Source: Ferrimonas sp. YFM
GTDB taxonomy: Bacteria > Pseudomonadota > Gammaproteobacteria > Enterobacterales > Shewanellaceae
Assembly (NCBI RefSeq): GCF_030296015.1
Contig: NZ_AP027368.1
Span: forward strand, 3,954,839-4,018,838
Reading direction: 5' to 3'
DNA length: 64,000 bases
In this document: positions 53,316-58,268 of the stretch, in pieces
How positions within the stretch are numbered: the stretch's first letter is position 1
How the letters are laid out: each line of letters begins with the position of its first letter
Position numbers and translations under genes: made by a program
Notes under the pieces: model-generated
Told to the model about the DNA's origin: nothing
Seen by the model: the letters and a program-made list of their open reading frames with translations, nothing else
Databases searched by the model: none

Positions 53316-54233
53316 TCAGCGGGCGGACGCCACGTGCTGATAGGCGGGAAGGTGCTCATACAGCTCATCCTTGAGAGGATGGCGACGAGCGGTGCGAATG
53401 CGATGTATCTGGTAGATGGCCAAGGCCACGTTGGCTGCCAGGGCGATGGCCGAGACAAACCACAGGGCCGCCGGATCACCGGACGCCTTCACAGCATATT
53501 TAGAGGTGTCCACAAAGCTTGGGAAGCACATGACAAACATCATCCAGAACGCCAGGGTGTGGGCCCGGTGTTGCAACCAGGCTCCGCGGCGCATGAAAAA
53601 GGCCGGGATGGTGCAGGAGAGCAGCAGGGCCGCTCCGGCGTAAAACGCGTGGTCACCGACGCAGTTGTAGACATAGGCGAAGTTCCACAGATCGTAGGCG
53701 ATGATCCAGAACCACAGCATGTCGGGCCAGAGCATATCCTTGAACTTGTCCCGGCTGATGAAGATCCCGGCCCAGCCACAGATGGTGAGGATATTCAGGA
53801 TGCCGGCGATGCCGTTCATGATGTTCCAGGAACCGCCGGTGATCATCACGCCATCCACCAAGCCGTTGAAGCTGTAACACTGAAAGTCCCGCACGACGGC
53901 TTCGGCGATGTTGATGGCCAGAATGGCCGGTGGAAACATCAGCACCCACTTTTTCTGAGCCGCGCCCGGGATATAGCGGATCGCCATAAAACCGATGCAG
54001 CCCGCCAGCACCGAGTACACCTTGGCCCAGTGGAACCAGGTGCCCACACTGGAGCCTTCTGCGGTGGTGGTGTGGGGCCAGACGGTGAAGGTCAGCACCA
54101 GGGGCAGGACAATGAAACAGCCGATGCCGGCCCACATGCTGCGGCGGGAGATCTCGTTGAGCAGAATCAGGGCGCCCAGAACCGCAAAGAAGGCGACCCA
54201 GGAGTGAAAGGGGATAGGTTCAAACAGAGACAT
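53316..54233 (-). CDS. DUF5692-like polytopic membrane protein (paralogue 3)
   Basis: Uncharacterised inner-membrane protein, 305 residues, about eight helices. Conserved landmarks: WFHWAKVYSVLAG, NIAEAVVRDFQ, WNIMNGIAGILN, FWIIAYDLWNFAYVYN, LQHRAHTLAFW. ATG behind GAGGTGG; a longer frame opens 18 codons upstream without support. Last gene of the four-gene operon, separated from the porin-like gene by 109 bases with a strong hairpin. Two upstream paralogues share N-[IS]-x-EA-x3-D, WFxWxKxxSV and WN[FM]A[FY]VY. DUF5692 assignment is from memory and should be searched. Confidence 0.75.
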   Translation of the reverse strand: MSLFEPIPFHSWVAFFAVLGALILLNEISRRSMWAGIGCFIVLPLVLTFTVWPHTTTAEGSSVGTWFHWAKVYSVLAGCIGFMAIRYIPGAAQKKWVLMFPPAILAINIAEAVVRDFQCYSFNGLVDGVMITGGSWNIMNGIAGILNILTICGWAGIFISRDKFKDMLWPDMLWFWIIAYDLWNFAYVYNCVGDHAFYAGAALLLSCTIPAFFMRRGAWLQHRAHTLAFWMMFVMCFPSFVDTSKYAVKASGDPAALWFVSAIALAANVALAIYQIHRIRTARRHPLKDELYEHLPAYQHVASAR

Positions 54234-54301
54234 GTTTCCACCTCGTAAGGTAGGGCGGAGGAGCGGAATGGGGATTGAGGATGACACCGCTCCTCCTGAA
54301 A

Positions 54302-54333
54302 GCTGGCAGAGCTACGGACGAGGCTCTGCCAGC
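54302..54333. repeat. Strong hairpin inside the DUF5692-like operon
   Basis: Perfect 11-bp stem GCTGGCAGAGC / GCTCTGCCAGC with a 10-base loop between the outer-membrane-like gene and paralogue 3. A TTTC follows on the minus strand. It may be a partial terminator or an mRNA end stabiliser. Confidence 0.75.
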
Positions 54334-54342
54334 GTTTCTGGG

Positions 54343-55179
54343 TTAGAAGGCGTAGTTGTATTCCAGCCAGTAGCTGTCGTCCTTGGCGGTGCTGTAGTAG
54401 GCGCGGACGTTCTGCTTCTTGGTCAATTGATACGCCAGGGAGATCTCGAATTCGTAGGCATCCATCTGCAGGCCGCCCTCCATCACGTCGTCATCCCAGG
54501 ACTTGCCGTTGAGCTCCATGGTGTAACGGTAGCTGGCCAGGGTCCACCAGTTGTCGGAGATGGTCCACTTGGCGTACACCATGGCGGTACCGATGGTGGA
54601 GGCGATGTCCACACCACTGGAGCTGGAGTCGGGCCACTCTGGATTCAGATCCTGAATGTTGTCGTCCATGATCACCGCACCCACATAGAGGATGGGCCAG
54701 ATCAGGATGTCCTCACCCACGGGGATGGTGGCTACGGGACCGGCCTGTATCACCGAGGTGGACCCGAAGAAGGGATGATCGGCAAATACCGCGTCGACGG
54801 AGAAGCCCAGGCCGTTCTTGGTATTAATGGTGCCGTAACGCAGACGGTAGGAGCGGTTACTGGCGTACCCTTTGGTTTTGGTGCCTACGGGCCCAATACT
54901 GCCATCTGGGTATTGGCCATATTGAATACCACCAAATTTGGGGGTTTTATCGCCTTCATTGAAGATGTTTTTCACTTCAAACAGAATACCGGTCTTTTGA
55001 TCAAATTCTCCTTTATCTTCACTCAGGGCCATCATCCCTTTCAGGTTGGCACCTTCGCTACCATAAGATGCACCTAAATAAGTGTACACTTCGGTTGGGT
55101 TGCCCATATCCGGTGCTTCTTCAGAAGCAAATGCAGACAAACTCAGGGCGGCCATCGCTAATGCAGTGAACTTTTTCAT
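54343..55179 (-). CDS. Outer-membrane-like beta protein of the DUF5692-like operon
   Basis: 278 residues. Signal peptide (MKKFTALAMAALSLSAFAS), then alternating amphipathic beta strands and a terminal aromatic Phe (WLEYNYAF), as in outer-membrane barrels. Not assigned to a named porin. Segments GILFEVKNIFNEGD, YRLRYGTINTKNGLGF and WTLASYRYTMELNGKSW suggest about ten strands. It lies between paralogues 2 and 3, 48 bases after the former. Its presence implies that the operon spans both membranes or imports/exports a solute. Confidence 0.7.
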   Translation of the reverse strand: MKKFTALAMAALSLSAFASEEAPDMGNPTEVYTYLGASYGSEGANLKGMMALSEDKGEFDQKTGILFEVKNIFNEGDKTPKFGGIQYGQYPDGSIGPVGTKTKGYASNRSYRLRYGTINTKNGLGFSVDAVFADHPFFGSTSVIQAGPVATIPVGEDILIWPILYVGAVIMDDNIQDLNPEWPDSSSSGVDIASTIGTAMVYAKWTISDNWWTLASYRYTMELNGKSWDDDVMEGGLQMDAYEFEISLAYQLTKKQNVRAYYSTAKDDSYWLEYNYAF

Positions 55180-55227
55180 TATCAACTCCAGAATCATTTA
55201 ATTATTTGTTTGTTTCGTAACTAATAA

Positions 55228-56400
55228 CTAACTCGCCATCTCTTGTTTCAAGCGGTAATTTCTCCATTTGGCGCCGAACACTTGGTAGAAAAGGATGGAA
55301 TTAAGAACGAAGCTCAAAAGTCCAACCGCCAGCATTAATTCGTCGTTTCTTGGCAGCATCACCACGTTACTTTCGTACATCGCCGGATTGGTGAAGTAGT
55401 ACATAAAGGAGAGGGCCAGGGTGAACGCCCGCGCCTGCAACCAGGTACCTCTGGTGATCAGCAGAGACGGAATGGTGGCCGCCGTCAGCACCATAAACTG
55501 AGCTGTGGCAGACCCAGGGAAGTTCAGGTAGACGAAGGCAAAGTTCCACACGTCATAGGCGATGATCCAGAAGGTGGTCATGGCCGGCCAGATCATGTCC
55601 TTCTCCTTGGTCTTGGCCGCCTGAATCTGGGCCCAGCCGGTCAGAGTGATGATGGAGAAGATGCCACCGATGGCGTTGAGCACATTGGCGGTATAGCCCA
55701 TGCTGAAGTCCTGCAATACCGCCTCGGAGATGTTCAGTGCCAGGAAACCCGCAGCACAGAACTTGGCCCACTTCATCTCGCCCACCTTGGTGTAGCGAAT
55801 CAGGGTAAAGAGCACACAGGCGCCGACCACGGAGTAAAGCTTGACCCACTTGAACCAGTAGCTGACACCGTAGCTGGCCCACAGGGGAATCAGCACTATG
55901 GGCAGGACGAAGAAGATGATCACCGTGGGCCACTTGTAACGGCGGCAGACCTCGTTCATCACCATCAGGCCAATCAGCACCAGCAGTACGTGACCATAGG
56001 CTCTGGCCTCAATCCACTTGTGGCCGATGAATTTCTTGCCCTCCTTGGCATAGTGAAAGCGATCGGCGGAGACCACGGTCATGTCGGCGTTGTCGAAGTT
56101 GTCGATCTGCTGACCAGGAGAGCCGGTGATGACCAGGCGATTGCCATCGATCTGCCACTGTTTCACCTCAACCTGATTGTGACCACCGGACTGCTTGGTG
56201 ATGGTCACCTGATGGTCTGGCGCAAACTCCAGTCTGAAGAAGATGCTTCCCTGGCCCGGGTCGCCATCCATGGTGCCTTGCCAGATCTGACCGGCAAACT
56301 GATCGCCGATAGACACCCCATCCAGGTCATTGGCCAGGACGGCCGGAGCCAGTACCAGGGCCAGCAGCCAGGCACAAAATAGCTTAAAAAAGGATTTCAT
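55228..56400 (-). CDS. DUF5692-like protein with N-terminal periplasmic domain (paralogue 2)
   Basis: 390 residues. A signal peptide (MKSFFKLFCAWLLALVLAPAVLA) and about 110 residues of beta-rich periplasmic domain (GDQFAGQIWQGTMDGDPGQGS to FHYAKEGKKFIGHKW) precede the shared membrane domain. Landmarks: WFKWVKLYSVVGA, NISEAVLQDFS, FWIIAYDVWNFAFVYL, LQARAFTLALS. The added domain is absent in the other two. The ATG gives the clean signal peptide; a longer frame opens 12 codons upstream. 46 bases after paralogue 1. Confidence 0.75.
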   Translation of the reverse strand: MKSFFKLFCAWLLALVLAPAVLANDLDGVSIGDQFAGQIWQGTMDGDPGQGSIFFRLEFAPDHQVTITKQSGGHNQVEVKQWQIDGNRLVITGSPGQQIDNFDNADMTVVSADRFHYAKEGKKFIGHKWIEARAYGHVLLVLIGLMVMNEVCRRYKWPTVIIFFVLPIVLIPLWASYGVSYWFKWVKLYSVVGACVLFTLIRYTKVGEMKWAKFCAAGFLALNISEAVLQDFSMGYTANVLNAIGGIFSIITLTGWAQIQAAKTKEKDMIWPAMTTFWIIAYDVWNFAFVYLNFPGSATAQFMVLTAATIPSLLITRGTWLQARAFTLALSFMYYFTNPAMYESNVVMLPRNDELMLAVGLLSFVLNSILFYQVFGAKWRNYRLKQEMAS

Positions 56401-56446
56401 TTCGTTTCTCCGCGGGGCAGCCACCCTGCCCCGCATTAGCGTTAAC

Positions 56447-57370
56447 TCAGGCAGTTAGCGGTTTTTGACCGGGCAGCAAGGGACTGCTTTCCTCGGTCCT
56501 GGCATCCACCACCAGCGGCGGTTGCCTGTCCCCATAGGGAGGTTCATTGCCACCCTCAGCATTGGGCTGACGGAACTTCTTGAAGTACCAGAACAGGTAG
56601 GCCACATGCAGTACGGCGTTGGCTACGCCCCAGTAGAGCAGTACCTGATCGTTGGCCCAGTGGGTGGAGTCCATGACCTTGGCGAAGGGGTCGCCCATGG
56701 CACGCACCAGGATGTGGAACGCCAGGGTGTAGACTCGGGCAATGATGTAGAGCTCGGGGCGCTTCTTGAACACGGGGTAGAGCTCTGCCGCCATCAGAAT
56801 GCAGAAGGAACTGGCGAAGTATCCGGGGTTTTCCCCATAGACAAAGGCCATGTTCCAGGTGGTGTAGAGGAAGTTCCATGACGCGGTGGAGTAGAACAGC
56901 AGGTCATTGGGCGCGTCTTTACCGATAAGCCAGTATTGGCGCTTGCCGTTCTTGTATTTGGGGAAGGGCATGGTGGCCAGCAACACACAACCTGCAATGA
57001 AGTTGAAGTAGTTCTCTGTCACCAGGTCCTTGACGGTTGCCTCGGCAATGTTGAGGAAAAGTACGCCGTACAAAACCCACAATACCCAGTCTTTTCGGAA
57101 AAACTTAAGTATCCGGTTTGGATTTTCATAATAGAGATATGCAATTCGTGCGGTACCGACAATTAACGCGGTAGGAATAAGCACGCTGACGGTTTTTGCC
57201 CAGCGGAACCAACCATCCAAATTGTCCGCCCAAAGAGGGGCAGTCAATAAAGACAGCAACCAGAAAAGAAAAGTAAATCTTGGTGTTCTTCTCATCATTT
57301 CGACGAGAACTAGCAGGAATACAATGTAGCCCACCATGGAAACTACATAGGTAGAAATCGGGATACCCAT
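56447..57370 (-). CDS. DUF5692-like polytopic membrane protein (paralogue 1, divergent)
   Basis: 307 residues, about eight helices and a Pro-rich charged C-terminal tail. It is the most diverged copy but keeps WFRWAKTVSVL, NIAEATVKDLV and TTWNMAFVYGENPG in the same order and spacing. First gene of the operon, so directly downstream of the promoter region that holds the FNR-type site and palindromes. Function unknown. Confidence 0.7.
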   Translation of the reverse strand: MGIPISTYVVSMVGYIVFLLVLVEMMRRTPRFTFLFWLLSLLTAPLWADNLDGWFRWAKTVSVLIPTALIVGTARIAYLYYENPNRILKFFRKDWVLWVLYGVLFLNIAEATVKDLVTENYFNFIAGCVLLATMPFPKYKNGKRQYWLIGKDAPNDLLFYSTASWNFLYTTWNMAFVYGENPGYFASSFCILMAAELYPVFKKRPELYIIARVYTLAFHILVRAMGDPFAKVMDSTHWANDQVLLYWGVANAVLHVAYLFWYFKKFRQPNAEGGNEPPYGDRQPPLVVDARTEESSPLLPGQKPLTA

Positions 57371-57399
57371 ACCAACCTCAGAATTTATCCAGACTCGCT

Positions 57400-57417
57400 T
57401 TAGAGCTTTTACTCTAA
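57400..57417. promoter_or_regulatory. Palindrome TTAGAG-N6-CTCTAA, copy 1
   Basis: 6-bp arms around CTTTTA, 30 bases before the paralogue 1 ATG, at the position of a promoter or operator. Confidence 0.6.
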
Positions 57418-57631
57418 TGTTTGGTTTGGCCGAATTTCATGACCGGGATCAAGAATTTTTCCGCCGTTTTTTTGAACTGACATCAATATGGTTCGAACCA
57501 GATTATTTAACCGAAAAACAGGCCAATACTTCAAAGGGAGCGTTGCAATCAGAGGATTTTCAAAGCAAAAAACGAGATGACAGACAGATAACCCCATTCG
57601 TTAACATGGGCGAACATTTTGGAAAAATAGA

Positions 57632-57645
57632 TTGATTTAAATCAA
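57632..57645. promoter_or_regulatory. Exact FNR/EtrA site TTGATTTAAATCAA
   Basis: Perfect match to TTGAT-N4-ATCAA, extended to a 16-bp palindrome ATTGATTTAAATCAAT. Its centre (57638.5) lies 69 bases before the chalcone-isomerase-fold gene. FNR class II placement would put a transcript start near 57680. Confidence 0.7.
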
Positions 57646-57656
57646 TAAAAAATAGA

Positions 57657-57674
57657 TTAGAGCAAATACTCTAA
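57657..57674. promoter_or_regulatory. Palindrome TTAGAG-N6-CTCTAA, copy 2
   Basis: Same arms around CAAATA, 34 bases before the chalcone-isomerase-fold ATG. It would overlap the -10 of an FNR-type promoter, consistent with a repressor site. Confidence 0.6.
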
Positions 57675-57707
57675 TGGGGATTCTGGCCATATTTAAGGTG
57701 ACCCAAG

Positions 57708-58268
57708 ATGCAAAAAATGCCCCTGCTTTCCCTATGCTTCTCCCTGGCCTTCAGTGGCGCCGCCTGGTCGGTGACCATGGCCGATGTGGAGCTGGCTGAT
57801 AACCTCACTCTGGATGGTGTGGAGATGCCTTACCGAGGCGCCGGCATCCGCTCCAAGTTCTTTATGGACCTCTATGTCAGCTCCCTCTACAACCAGGAAA
57901 GCCTGCCCGCAGGCGAACTGATGGAGGGGCAAACCGCCACCACCATTCAACTGGACATCATCTCCTCGATGATCACCTCGGAAAAGATGACCGCCAGCAT
58001 GGAGGATGGTTTTGCCCAATCCGCCGGTAAACACCTGCCGCAGCTGAAAGAGCAGATCAGCCAGTTTACCCAGGCGTTCAGTGCCCCGGTCAGTGAAGGT
58101 GACACCTTCCAGATCGTCTCCATTCCCGGGCAGCCGGTGGAGCTGATTAAAAATGGCACCAAGCTGGTGGCGGTCGAGGGCGAACTGTTCCGCTCGGTCC
58201 TGCTGGGCATCTGGCTTGGTGACGATCCCCTCGACGATGACTTGAAAGAGGAGATGCTGGGACTCTAG
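57708..58268 (+). CDS. Chalcone-isomerase-fold periplasmic protein
   Basis: 186 residues. Signal peptide (LLSLCFSLAFSGAAWS) and the bacterial chalcone_3 domain: LTLDGVEMPYRGAGIRSKFFMDLYVSSLYN, then QLDIISSMITSEKM and LLGIWLGDDPLDDDLKEEMLGL. Bacterial members lack known isomerase activity and may bind fatty acids or haem (family knowledge). Divergent from the DUF5692-like operon and sharing its regulatory region, so probably co-regulated. RBS AAGGTG. Confidence 0.82.
   Translation: MQKMPLLSLCFSLAFSGAAWSVTMADVELADNLTLDGVEMPYRGAGIRSKFFMDLYVSSLYNQESLPAGELMEGQTATTIQLDIISSMITSEKMTASMEDGFAQSAGKHLPQLKEQISQFTQAFSAPVSEGDTFQIVSIPGQPVELIKNGTKLVAVEGELFRSVLLGIWLGDDPLDDDLKEEMLGL

Follow-up and report, generated by a model that had tools for sequence, protein, structure and literature searches.

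A conserved gene cluster of DUF5692-related membrane proteins in Ferrimonas that may handle unsaturated acyl chains

Bacteria of the rumen, the gut and sediments isomerize and saturate dietary unsaturated fatty acids, and in doing so shape milk and meat fat and the lipids of the host. Membrane-bound linoleate isomerases (EC 5.2.1.5) act on polyunsaturated fatty acids (PUFAs) in anaerobic or facultative bacteria such as Butyrivibrio fibrisolvens, Lactobacillus reuteri, Clostridium sporogenes and Bifidobacterium, in which the isomerase BBI is membrane-bound. According to the available portions of the reports, BBI of Bifidobacterium breve is backed by a knock-out (PMC11812354), linoleate isomerases are membrane-bound and easily inactivated on purification (a 2025 review, PMC12254105), and no linoleate isomerase gene was found in the B. 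fibrisolvens genome, for which oleate hydratase and enolase were suggested instead (PMC6249431). In the accessible part of a study of the putative isoprene reductase IsrA, the family DUF5692 (PF18948) occurs among the neighbors of 988 IsrA homologues with a frequency of 0.40; HypA, HypB and TetR are likewise neighbors, and an oleate hydratase lies beside IsrA relatives in two Acetobacterium species (PMC10134865). DUF5692 has no assigned function, as an earlier note made from the letters of the present DNA had stated, although that co-occurrence with IsrA-type reductases is a clue that the note did not have. Here we describe a cluster of three DUF5692-related genes and a gene for an outer-membrane barrel-like protein (OMP) in a 64,000-nucleotide stretch of Ferrimonas sp. 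YFM (contig NZ_AP027368.1, positions 3,954,839 to 4,018,838; the window). Gene neighborhoods suggest that DUF5692 is probably linked to unsaturated acyl or conjugated-diene metabolism. We tentatively propose, as a reading that could well be wrong, that the cluster and a neighboring gene form a trans-envelope system whose cargo is (poly)unsaturated fatty acids or similar acyl chains, with DUF5692 moving their double bonds or handling the substrate.

The features of the locus, by position in the window, are as follows.

53316 to 54287, minus strand: gene 1, canonical DUF5692 protein, 323 amino acids as called (PF18948, 467 bits)
54343 to 55197, minus strand: OMP, 284 amino acids, with a signal-peptide-like start and a C-terminal Phe
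55228 to 56436, minus strand: gene 2, DUF5692 protein of 402 amino acids with a signal-peptide-like N-terminus and an extra barrel domain
56011 to 56319, minus strand: predicted lipocalin-like beta barrel of gene 2, residues about 40 to 142
56447 to 57370, minus strand: gene 3, DUF5692-related membrane protein of 307 amino acids, below Pfam detection but homologous by profile-profile comparison
57371 to 57707: divergent intergenic region of 337 bp, presumed from its position to be the control region of both units
57708 to 58268, plus strand: PF16036 chalcone-isomerase-like (CHI-fold) protein with a signal-peptide-like start, divergent from gene 3 and a member of its family by score (156 bits; cut-off 27)

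All four open reading frames at 53316-57370 were confirmed on the minus strand, with gaps of 10, 30 and 55 bp between gene 3, gene 2, the OMP gene and gene 1. In the structural model of gene 1, residues 1-18 have a low predicted local distance difference test score (pLDDT), and M19 is invariant in a 19-row alignment; because of these two features, translation of gene 1 probably begins at the ATG at 54233 (residue 19). Gene 2 may likewise begin further in, at the ATG at 56400. Genes 1 and 2 passed the PF18948 cut-off of 27 bits (467 and 190 bits), and gene 3 had no Pfam match at E ≤ 1. The earlier note had taken the three proteins to be paralogues, and the hhalign comparisons agree, placing their homology beyond chance: the probability was 100% for genes 1 and 2 (E 5e-56), 99.0% for genes 1 and 3 (E 4e-18), and 98.4% for genes 2 and 3 (E 5e-15). 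The three motifs on which it had relied (N-[IS]-x-EA-x3-D, WFxWxKxxSV and WN[FM]A[FY]VY) were found in all three proteins in identical order. The extra domain that it had noticed in gene 2 comprises about 100 N-terminal residues and is predicted to be a beta barrel. Its polar residues within membrane helices were also recovered: a ten-row alignment of diverse members has Lys89, Asn126, Glu129, Asp134, Asn158, Tyr198 and Arg241 invariant within predicted helices, with Phe85, Arg104, Thr168, Trp194 and Leu245 invariant as well. In a 66-member alignment Lys89, Asn126, Glu129, Asn158, Tyr198, Asn202 and Arg241 were invariant and Asp134 nearly so.

A survey of gene neighborhoods in relatives bore out the expected conservation of the cluster, with a shift in its boundaries. 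Gene 3, gene 2 and the OMP gene (the module) occur together in all 16 module loci, which come from 13 genomes and three further Ferrimonas contigs that may partly duplicate these genomes, and which represent Ferrimonas, Shewanella, Moritella and one further genus of the order. The placement of the OMP within the operon was thus upheld, and an OMP was present in 17 of 34 DUF5692 neighborhoods examined. The operon of three paralogues and the OMP exists as the earlier note described it, but the unit kept in relatives is the module together with the PF16036 gene, which lies beyond the four genes. The PF16036 gene adjoins the module in 15 of the 16 loci (L161 is without it), divergent from gene 3 in Ferrimonas and after the OMP gene in the same direction in Shewanella and Moritella; no PF16036 match was found in five module-free stretches (L005, L170-L173). 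Genomes of the window's bacterial family had PF16036 matches in 58 of 58 cases examined: the nine with the module had three each, the remaining 49 one or two; the weakest of the three was below the family cut-off in three of the nine. As far as the accessible text of the literature searched under DUF5692 and PF18948 extends, a cluster with an OMP, a barrel domain and a PF16036 gene was not found. The OMP scored 14.8 bits against PF13505, below the cut-off of 28.7, and was not assigned to that family; a profile search of the Protein Data Bank (PDB) found no solved relative (best E 0.46). Its terminal residues A283 and F284 are invariant in an 11-row alignment. A chemoreceptor-type gene follows the module in 7 of the 16 loci.

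The origin of the cluster by triplication in place, as the earlier note had suggested, was not supported. The module occurs without an adjoining gene 1 in Shewanella, Moritella, another genus of the order and two of the seven module-bearing Ferrimonas genomes (gene 1 is within the operon in the other five), and, within the best 80 of the 310 relatives of gene 1, proteins from other phyla share 61-75% identity with it. Because of these two observations, gene 1 looks to have been recruited into the operon. A hetero-oligomeric inner-membrane complex tied to the outer membrane is plausible. A second pair, gene 3'-gene 2' (38 and 44% identity to the counterparts in the window), lies elsewhere in the same genome without an OMP gene or gene 1 (L005:6536-8662, near 2558520-2560660); gene 3' scored 45 bits against PF18948, above the cut-off of 27, and such a pair also occurs without an OMP gene in other genomes. 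The pair in L005 adjoins MipA-like and DUF5610 genes and, as judged by eye, a TonB-receptor/ABC-transporter-like set. A gene 1-gene 3 pair without gene 2 was seen in L173:5510-9816, where genes for an alpha/beta hydrolase and an OMP homologue are oriented divergently from it. In five Moritella loci (L159-L163) an enoyl-CoA hydratase/isomerase-like gene is divergent from gene 3, identified by PF00378 in L159 and by clustering in the others.

Relatives of gene 1 were found in 310 stretches of the genome collection, and the best 80 were analyzed, 57 of them with full flanks. These 80 canonical loci are 61-96% identical to gene 1 and come from Actinobacteria, Chloroflexota, Clostridia, Bacilli, Spirochaetota, Bacteroidales and Gammaproteobacteria. 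Three Peptostreptococcaceae loci (L077, L081 and L083) have two canonical DUF5692 genes in tandem. A Latilactobacillus curvatus record also encodes DUF5692 (57% identity); another strain of that species is listed as a conjugated linolenic acid producer in the available part of a 2026 review (PMC13365329). Across the phylum PF18948 is patchy, occurring in 5 of 299 genomes, and in the window's bacterial family it was found in 12 of 96, one of these being a remnant under the cut-off. The remnant (G319:C2:391307-391630, L026) is decayed, with seven stops, a sign of loss after gain.

The link to IsrA-like reductases was seen both in genome content and in gene order. Of the 295 order genomes scanned, seven carry a full-length IsrA-like gene (E ≤ 1e-150, at most three candidates scored per genome), and all seven were within the 11 that match a gene-3 profile (Fisher p 9e-12), a value that overstates independence because this test overlaps with the one on canonical DUF5692 genomes below and because five of the seven genomes belong to one genus. 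The fairer figure is the genus-level count, with IsrA in three of five genera with a gene-3-profile match and in none of 94 without one (p 6e-5). Among 31 canonical-DUF5692 genomes, chosen by hand from the 80 loci, 14 have full-length IsrA: the genome of the IsrA query itself and 13 at 60-81% identity. Ferrimonas aestuarii is one of these genomes. Within the flanks examined, IsrA is near DUF5692 in 5 of the 80 canonical loci; HypB separates the two genes in four of these, and in the fifth IsrA is about 7 kb away and cut by the edge of the stretch. The gene order is TetR-DUF5692-HypB-IsrA in L053, a Chloroflexota locus; three others read DUF5692-HypB-IsrA. In Romboutsia (L228) a gene-3-type relative, which scored 26.2 bits against PF18948 and so fell just under the cut-off, lies directly before IsrA in the order TetR-gene 3 type-IsrA, and in Moritella (L220) gene 1 is about 6 kb from HypB-IsrA-HypA-IsrA.

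Other neighbors resemble enzymes that act on fatty acids or olefins. PDB entry 2b9w, titled putative aminooxidase, is presumably the polyunsaturated fatty acid isomerase (PAI) of P. acnes. Of five PAI-like genes, three were searched against it and matched with E 9e-57 to 1e-61, and two were assigned by their similarity to these three. Two Paenibacillus, neither of which had an IsrA match, have such a gene ahead of DUF5692, at distances of about 230 and 430 bp. Of the 11 IsrA loci whose flanks were examined (out of 21 IsrA places), three have one no more than 3 kb from IsrA. Near IsrA in L224, L226 and L227 a PAI-like isomerase homologue is repeatedly paired with a helix-turn-helix/transposase-like protein. 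In L171:1548-8879 gene 3'-gene 2' is followed by oleABCD, with OleA, OleC and OleD scoring 503, 960 and 613 bits, above their cut-offs; in L172:8240-14571 gene 2' lies directly before oleABCD, by clustering, with OleA alone scanned. A further DUF5692 relative (L177:1-7650) has a triple-FabA/acyltransferase protein on one side and an NTE-type patatin protein on the other. The theme shared by these neighbors is the carbon-carbon double bond of a hydrophobic chain.

Gene 1, modeled from a 66-row alignment, showed nine membrane helices at a mean pLDDT of 93.5, and its loop charges are mostly positive-inside, fitting an N-out, C-in topology. The gene 2 model (23 rows; pLDDT 87.4) has nine helices after the barrel, and because of the N-out topology the barrel domain is predicted to be in the periplasm. 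In fold comparison the modeled barrel (residues 51-140) resembles designed and lipocalin-like barrels; proteins with a CHI or lipocalin fold frequently bind hydrophobic ligands. When gene 1 was compared by sequence with the PDB, nothing scored better than sandercyanin at E 0.27, which was taken as a chance match. The reading as a retinal protein or GPCR-like receptor gained no support, the fold scores staying within the background range. The best viral fold match in BFVD was A0A6J5L4T2, an uncharacterized protein of an uncultured Caudovirales phage (probability 1.00, E 0.009, TM 0.35), which, judged from the models, is possibly a phage-borne relative.

From these observations we propose the following course. 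The OMP would admit or collect lipid. Two parts whose folds suggest such a role, the CHI-fold protein and gene 2's lipocalin-like domain, would carry it through the periplasm. The DUF5692 proteins would take it into an intramembrane pocket formed by Lys89, Asn126, Glu129, Asp134, Asn158, Tyr198 and Asn202, residues placed mostly in the periplasmic half by the predicted topology. There DUF5692 might shift or isomerize a double bond through acid-base catalysis that needs no redox cofactor, in the manner of membrane-bound isomerases of the linoleate type. In bacteria with IsrA and HypA/HypB, the IsrA-like flavin/FeS enzyme would reduce the conjugated product and so complete biohydrogenation, whereas the window's genome would carry out the first step only, perhaps for detoxification or to modify lipids. 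A double-bond isomerase, or a partner that delivers its substrate, fits because of the cross-phylum conservation, the membrane burial, the absence of a recognized redox motif and the invariant Lys, Glu and Asp, and because DUF5692 occurs by itself or accompanied either by an isomerase homologue or by a proposed reductase of conjugated dienes. That DUF5692 is an isomerase in particular is possible but doubtful.

Several results weigh against the proposed system. The functional assignment is one of guilt by association, and at the cut-offs used the window's own genome lacks full-length IsrA (its matches were partial and GltD-like), OleC and PfaD. Full-length IsrA was absent from 17 of the 31 canonical-DUF5692 genomes and from 4 of the 11 order genomes matching the gene-3 profile; with the window's genome, these four led us to reject IsrA as an obligatory partner. 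Identical contig coordinates show that both co-occurrence tests contain the same three genomes, those of Shewanella sp. SR44-3, Moritella sp. DT_65 and M. dasanensis, and the gene-3-profile scan of the order may have missed genomes with other types alone. PAI-like adjacency to DUF5692 is confined to 2 of the 80 loci, within one genus, and ole adjacency to two genomes of one genus, one of them with only a 114-amino-acid gene 3' frame; no family adjoins most of the canonical loci. None of 14 Ferrimonas genomes sampled, including the window's, had a match to OleC (E ≤ 1e-100) or PfaD (E ≤ 1e-50), and in the window's bacterial family OleC and PfaD matches (71 and 72 of 96 genomes) are far more widespread than PF18948. 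An OleABCD or PUFA-synthase product was rejected on these grounds as the general substrate. The DUF5692 profile had no match in the PDB at E ≤ 1, no solved fold was close to the membrane part, and the Foldseek searches of the PDB and BFVD gave no match at E ≤ 0.001. The boldest version of the proposal, in which DUF5692 is the missing integral-membrane PUFA isomerase of anaerobic biohydrogenation, duplicated in Ferrimonas, Shewanella and Moritella into an outer-membrane-linked multi-subunit machine with a lipocalin-like domain and a CHI-fold carrier, is unlikely. The premise of a missing gene, on which the main proposal draws as well, is weakened because the available part of PMC13365329 re-annotates as the hydratase MCRA several 'linoleate isomerases' described as membrane-associated in lactic acid bacteria and bifidobacteria.

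The same neighborhoods could be explained if the DUF5692 proteins were carriers, importing or exporting an unsaturated lipid or hydrocarbon along a route made of the OMP, the CHI-fold protein and the barrel, while IsrA and PAI act in the cytoplasm. The conservation of an OMP and two ligand-binding-type folds with gene 3-gene 2 would be expected of such a route. TetR genes are common beside transporters, and the commonest neighbor family of canonical DUF5692 is TetR-like, at 34 of 80 loci (codon-position-weighted clustering, with two members Pfam-confirmed; such counts are lower bounds because crude gene calling misses small genes). Yet the window cluster has no ATPase or coupling protein, DUF5692 resembles no solved transporter or other chain in the searches described above, and the conservation of gene 1 across phyla (61-75%), together with its invariant acid/base residues, fits an enzyme as well. 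We consider carriers a rather weak candidate.

That DUF5692 proteins are seven-helix-like sensors of a hydrophobic ligand, signaling to an operon-encoded chemoreceptor, is very unlikely. A chemoreceptor-type gene does follow some modules, but a chemoreceptor match was absent from the seven Ferrimonas-type stretches searched, none was seen in many canonical DUF5692 loci, and comparison with rhodopsin/GPCR-type seven-helix folds gave Z values in the range noted as background for helical models. The substrate might also be another unsaturated hydrophobic compound, such as an isoprenoid, a diene hydrocarbon or a bile-acid- or quinone-like molecule, which the system detoxifies. The described role of IsrA would agree with this, but the PAI-like, oleABCD and FabA/patatin neighbors, together with the oleate hydratase reported in the accessible part of PMC10134865, indicate acyl chains, and we regard a substrate of this kind as improbable. 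We retain the acyl-chain system as our working proposal. If DUF5692 is an isomerase or handler of such chains, a family spanning Actinobacteria to Gammaproteobacteria would gain a function, IsrA-type reductases would gain an upstream partner, and the gap in biohydrogenation would become a testable hypothesis. The cluster would also represent an envelope system that joins a chalcone-isomerase fold and a predicted lipocalin-like domain to paired or tripled membrane proteins.

The locus can be compared with several described systems. The isr operon of Acetobacterium wieringae consists of IsrA, two HypA, HypB and ferredoxin without DUF5692, according to the part of PMC10134865 available; IsrA-like genes with HypA/HypB co-occur with DUF5692 elsewhere, whereas the window's genome is without full-length IsrA. 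For OleABCD, a pathway to long-chain olefins, the likeness is the position of gene 3'-gene 2' directly before oleABCD in L171, set against the Ferrimonas genomes in which OleC was not found. Homologues of the 2b9w-type isomerase neighbor both DUF5692 and IsrA, but they belong to the flavin amine-oxidase family (the neighbors match PF01593) and are unrelated in sequence to DUF5692. With the membrane-bound linoleate isomerases DUF5692 shares its membrane location, judged for gene 1 from nine predicted helices, and the two are likened by description and not by sequence. Gene context supports the analogy that DUF5692 may work like a membrane linoleate isomerase.

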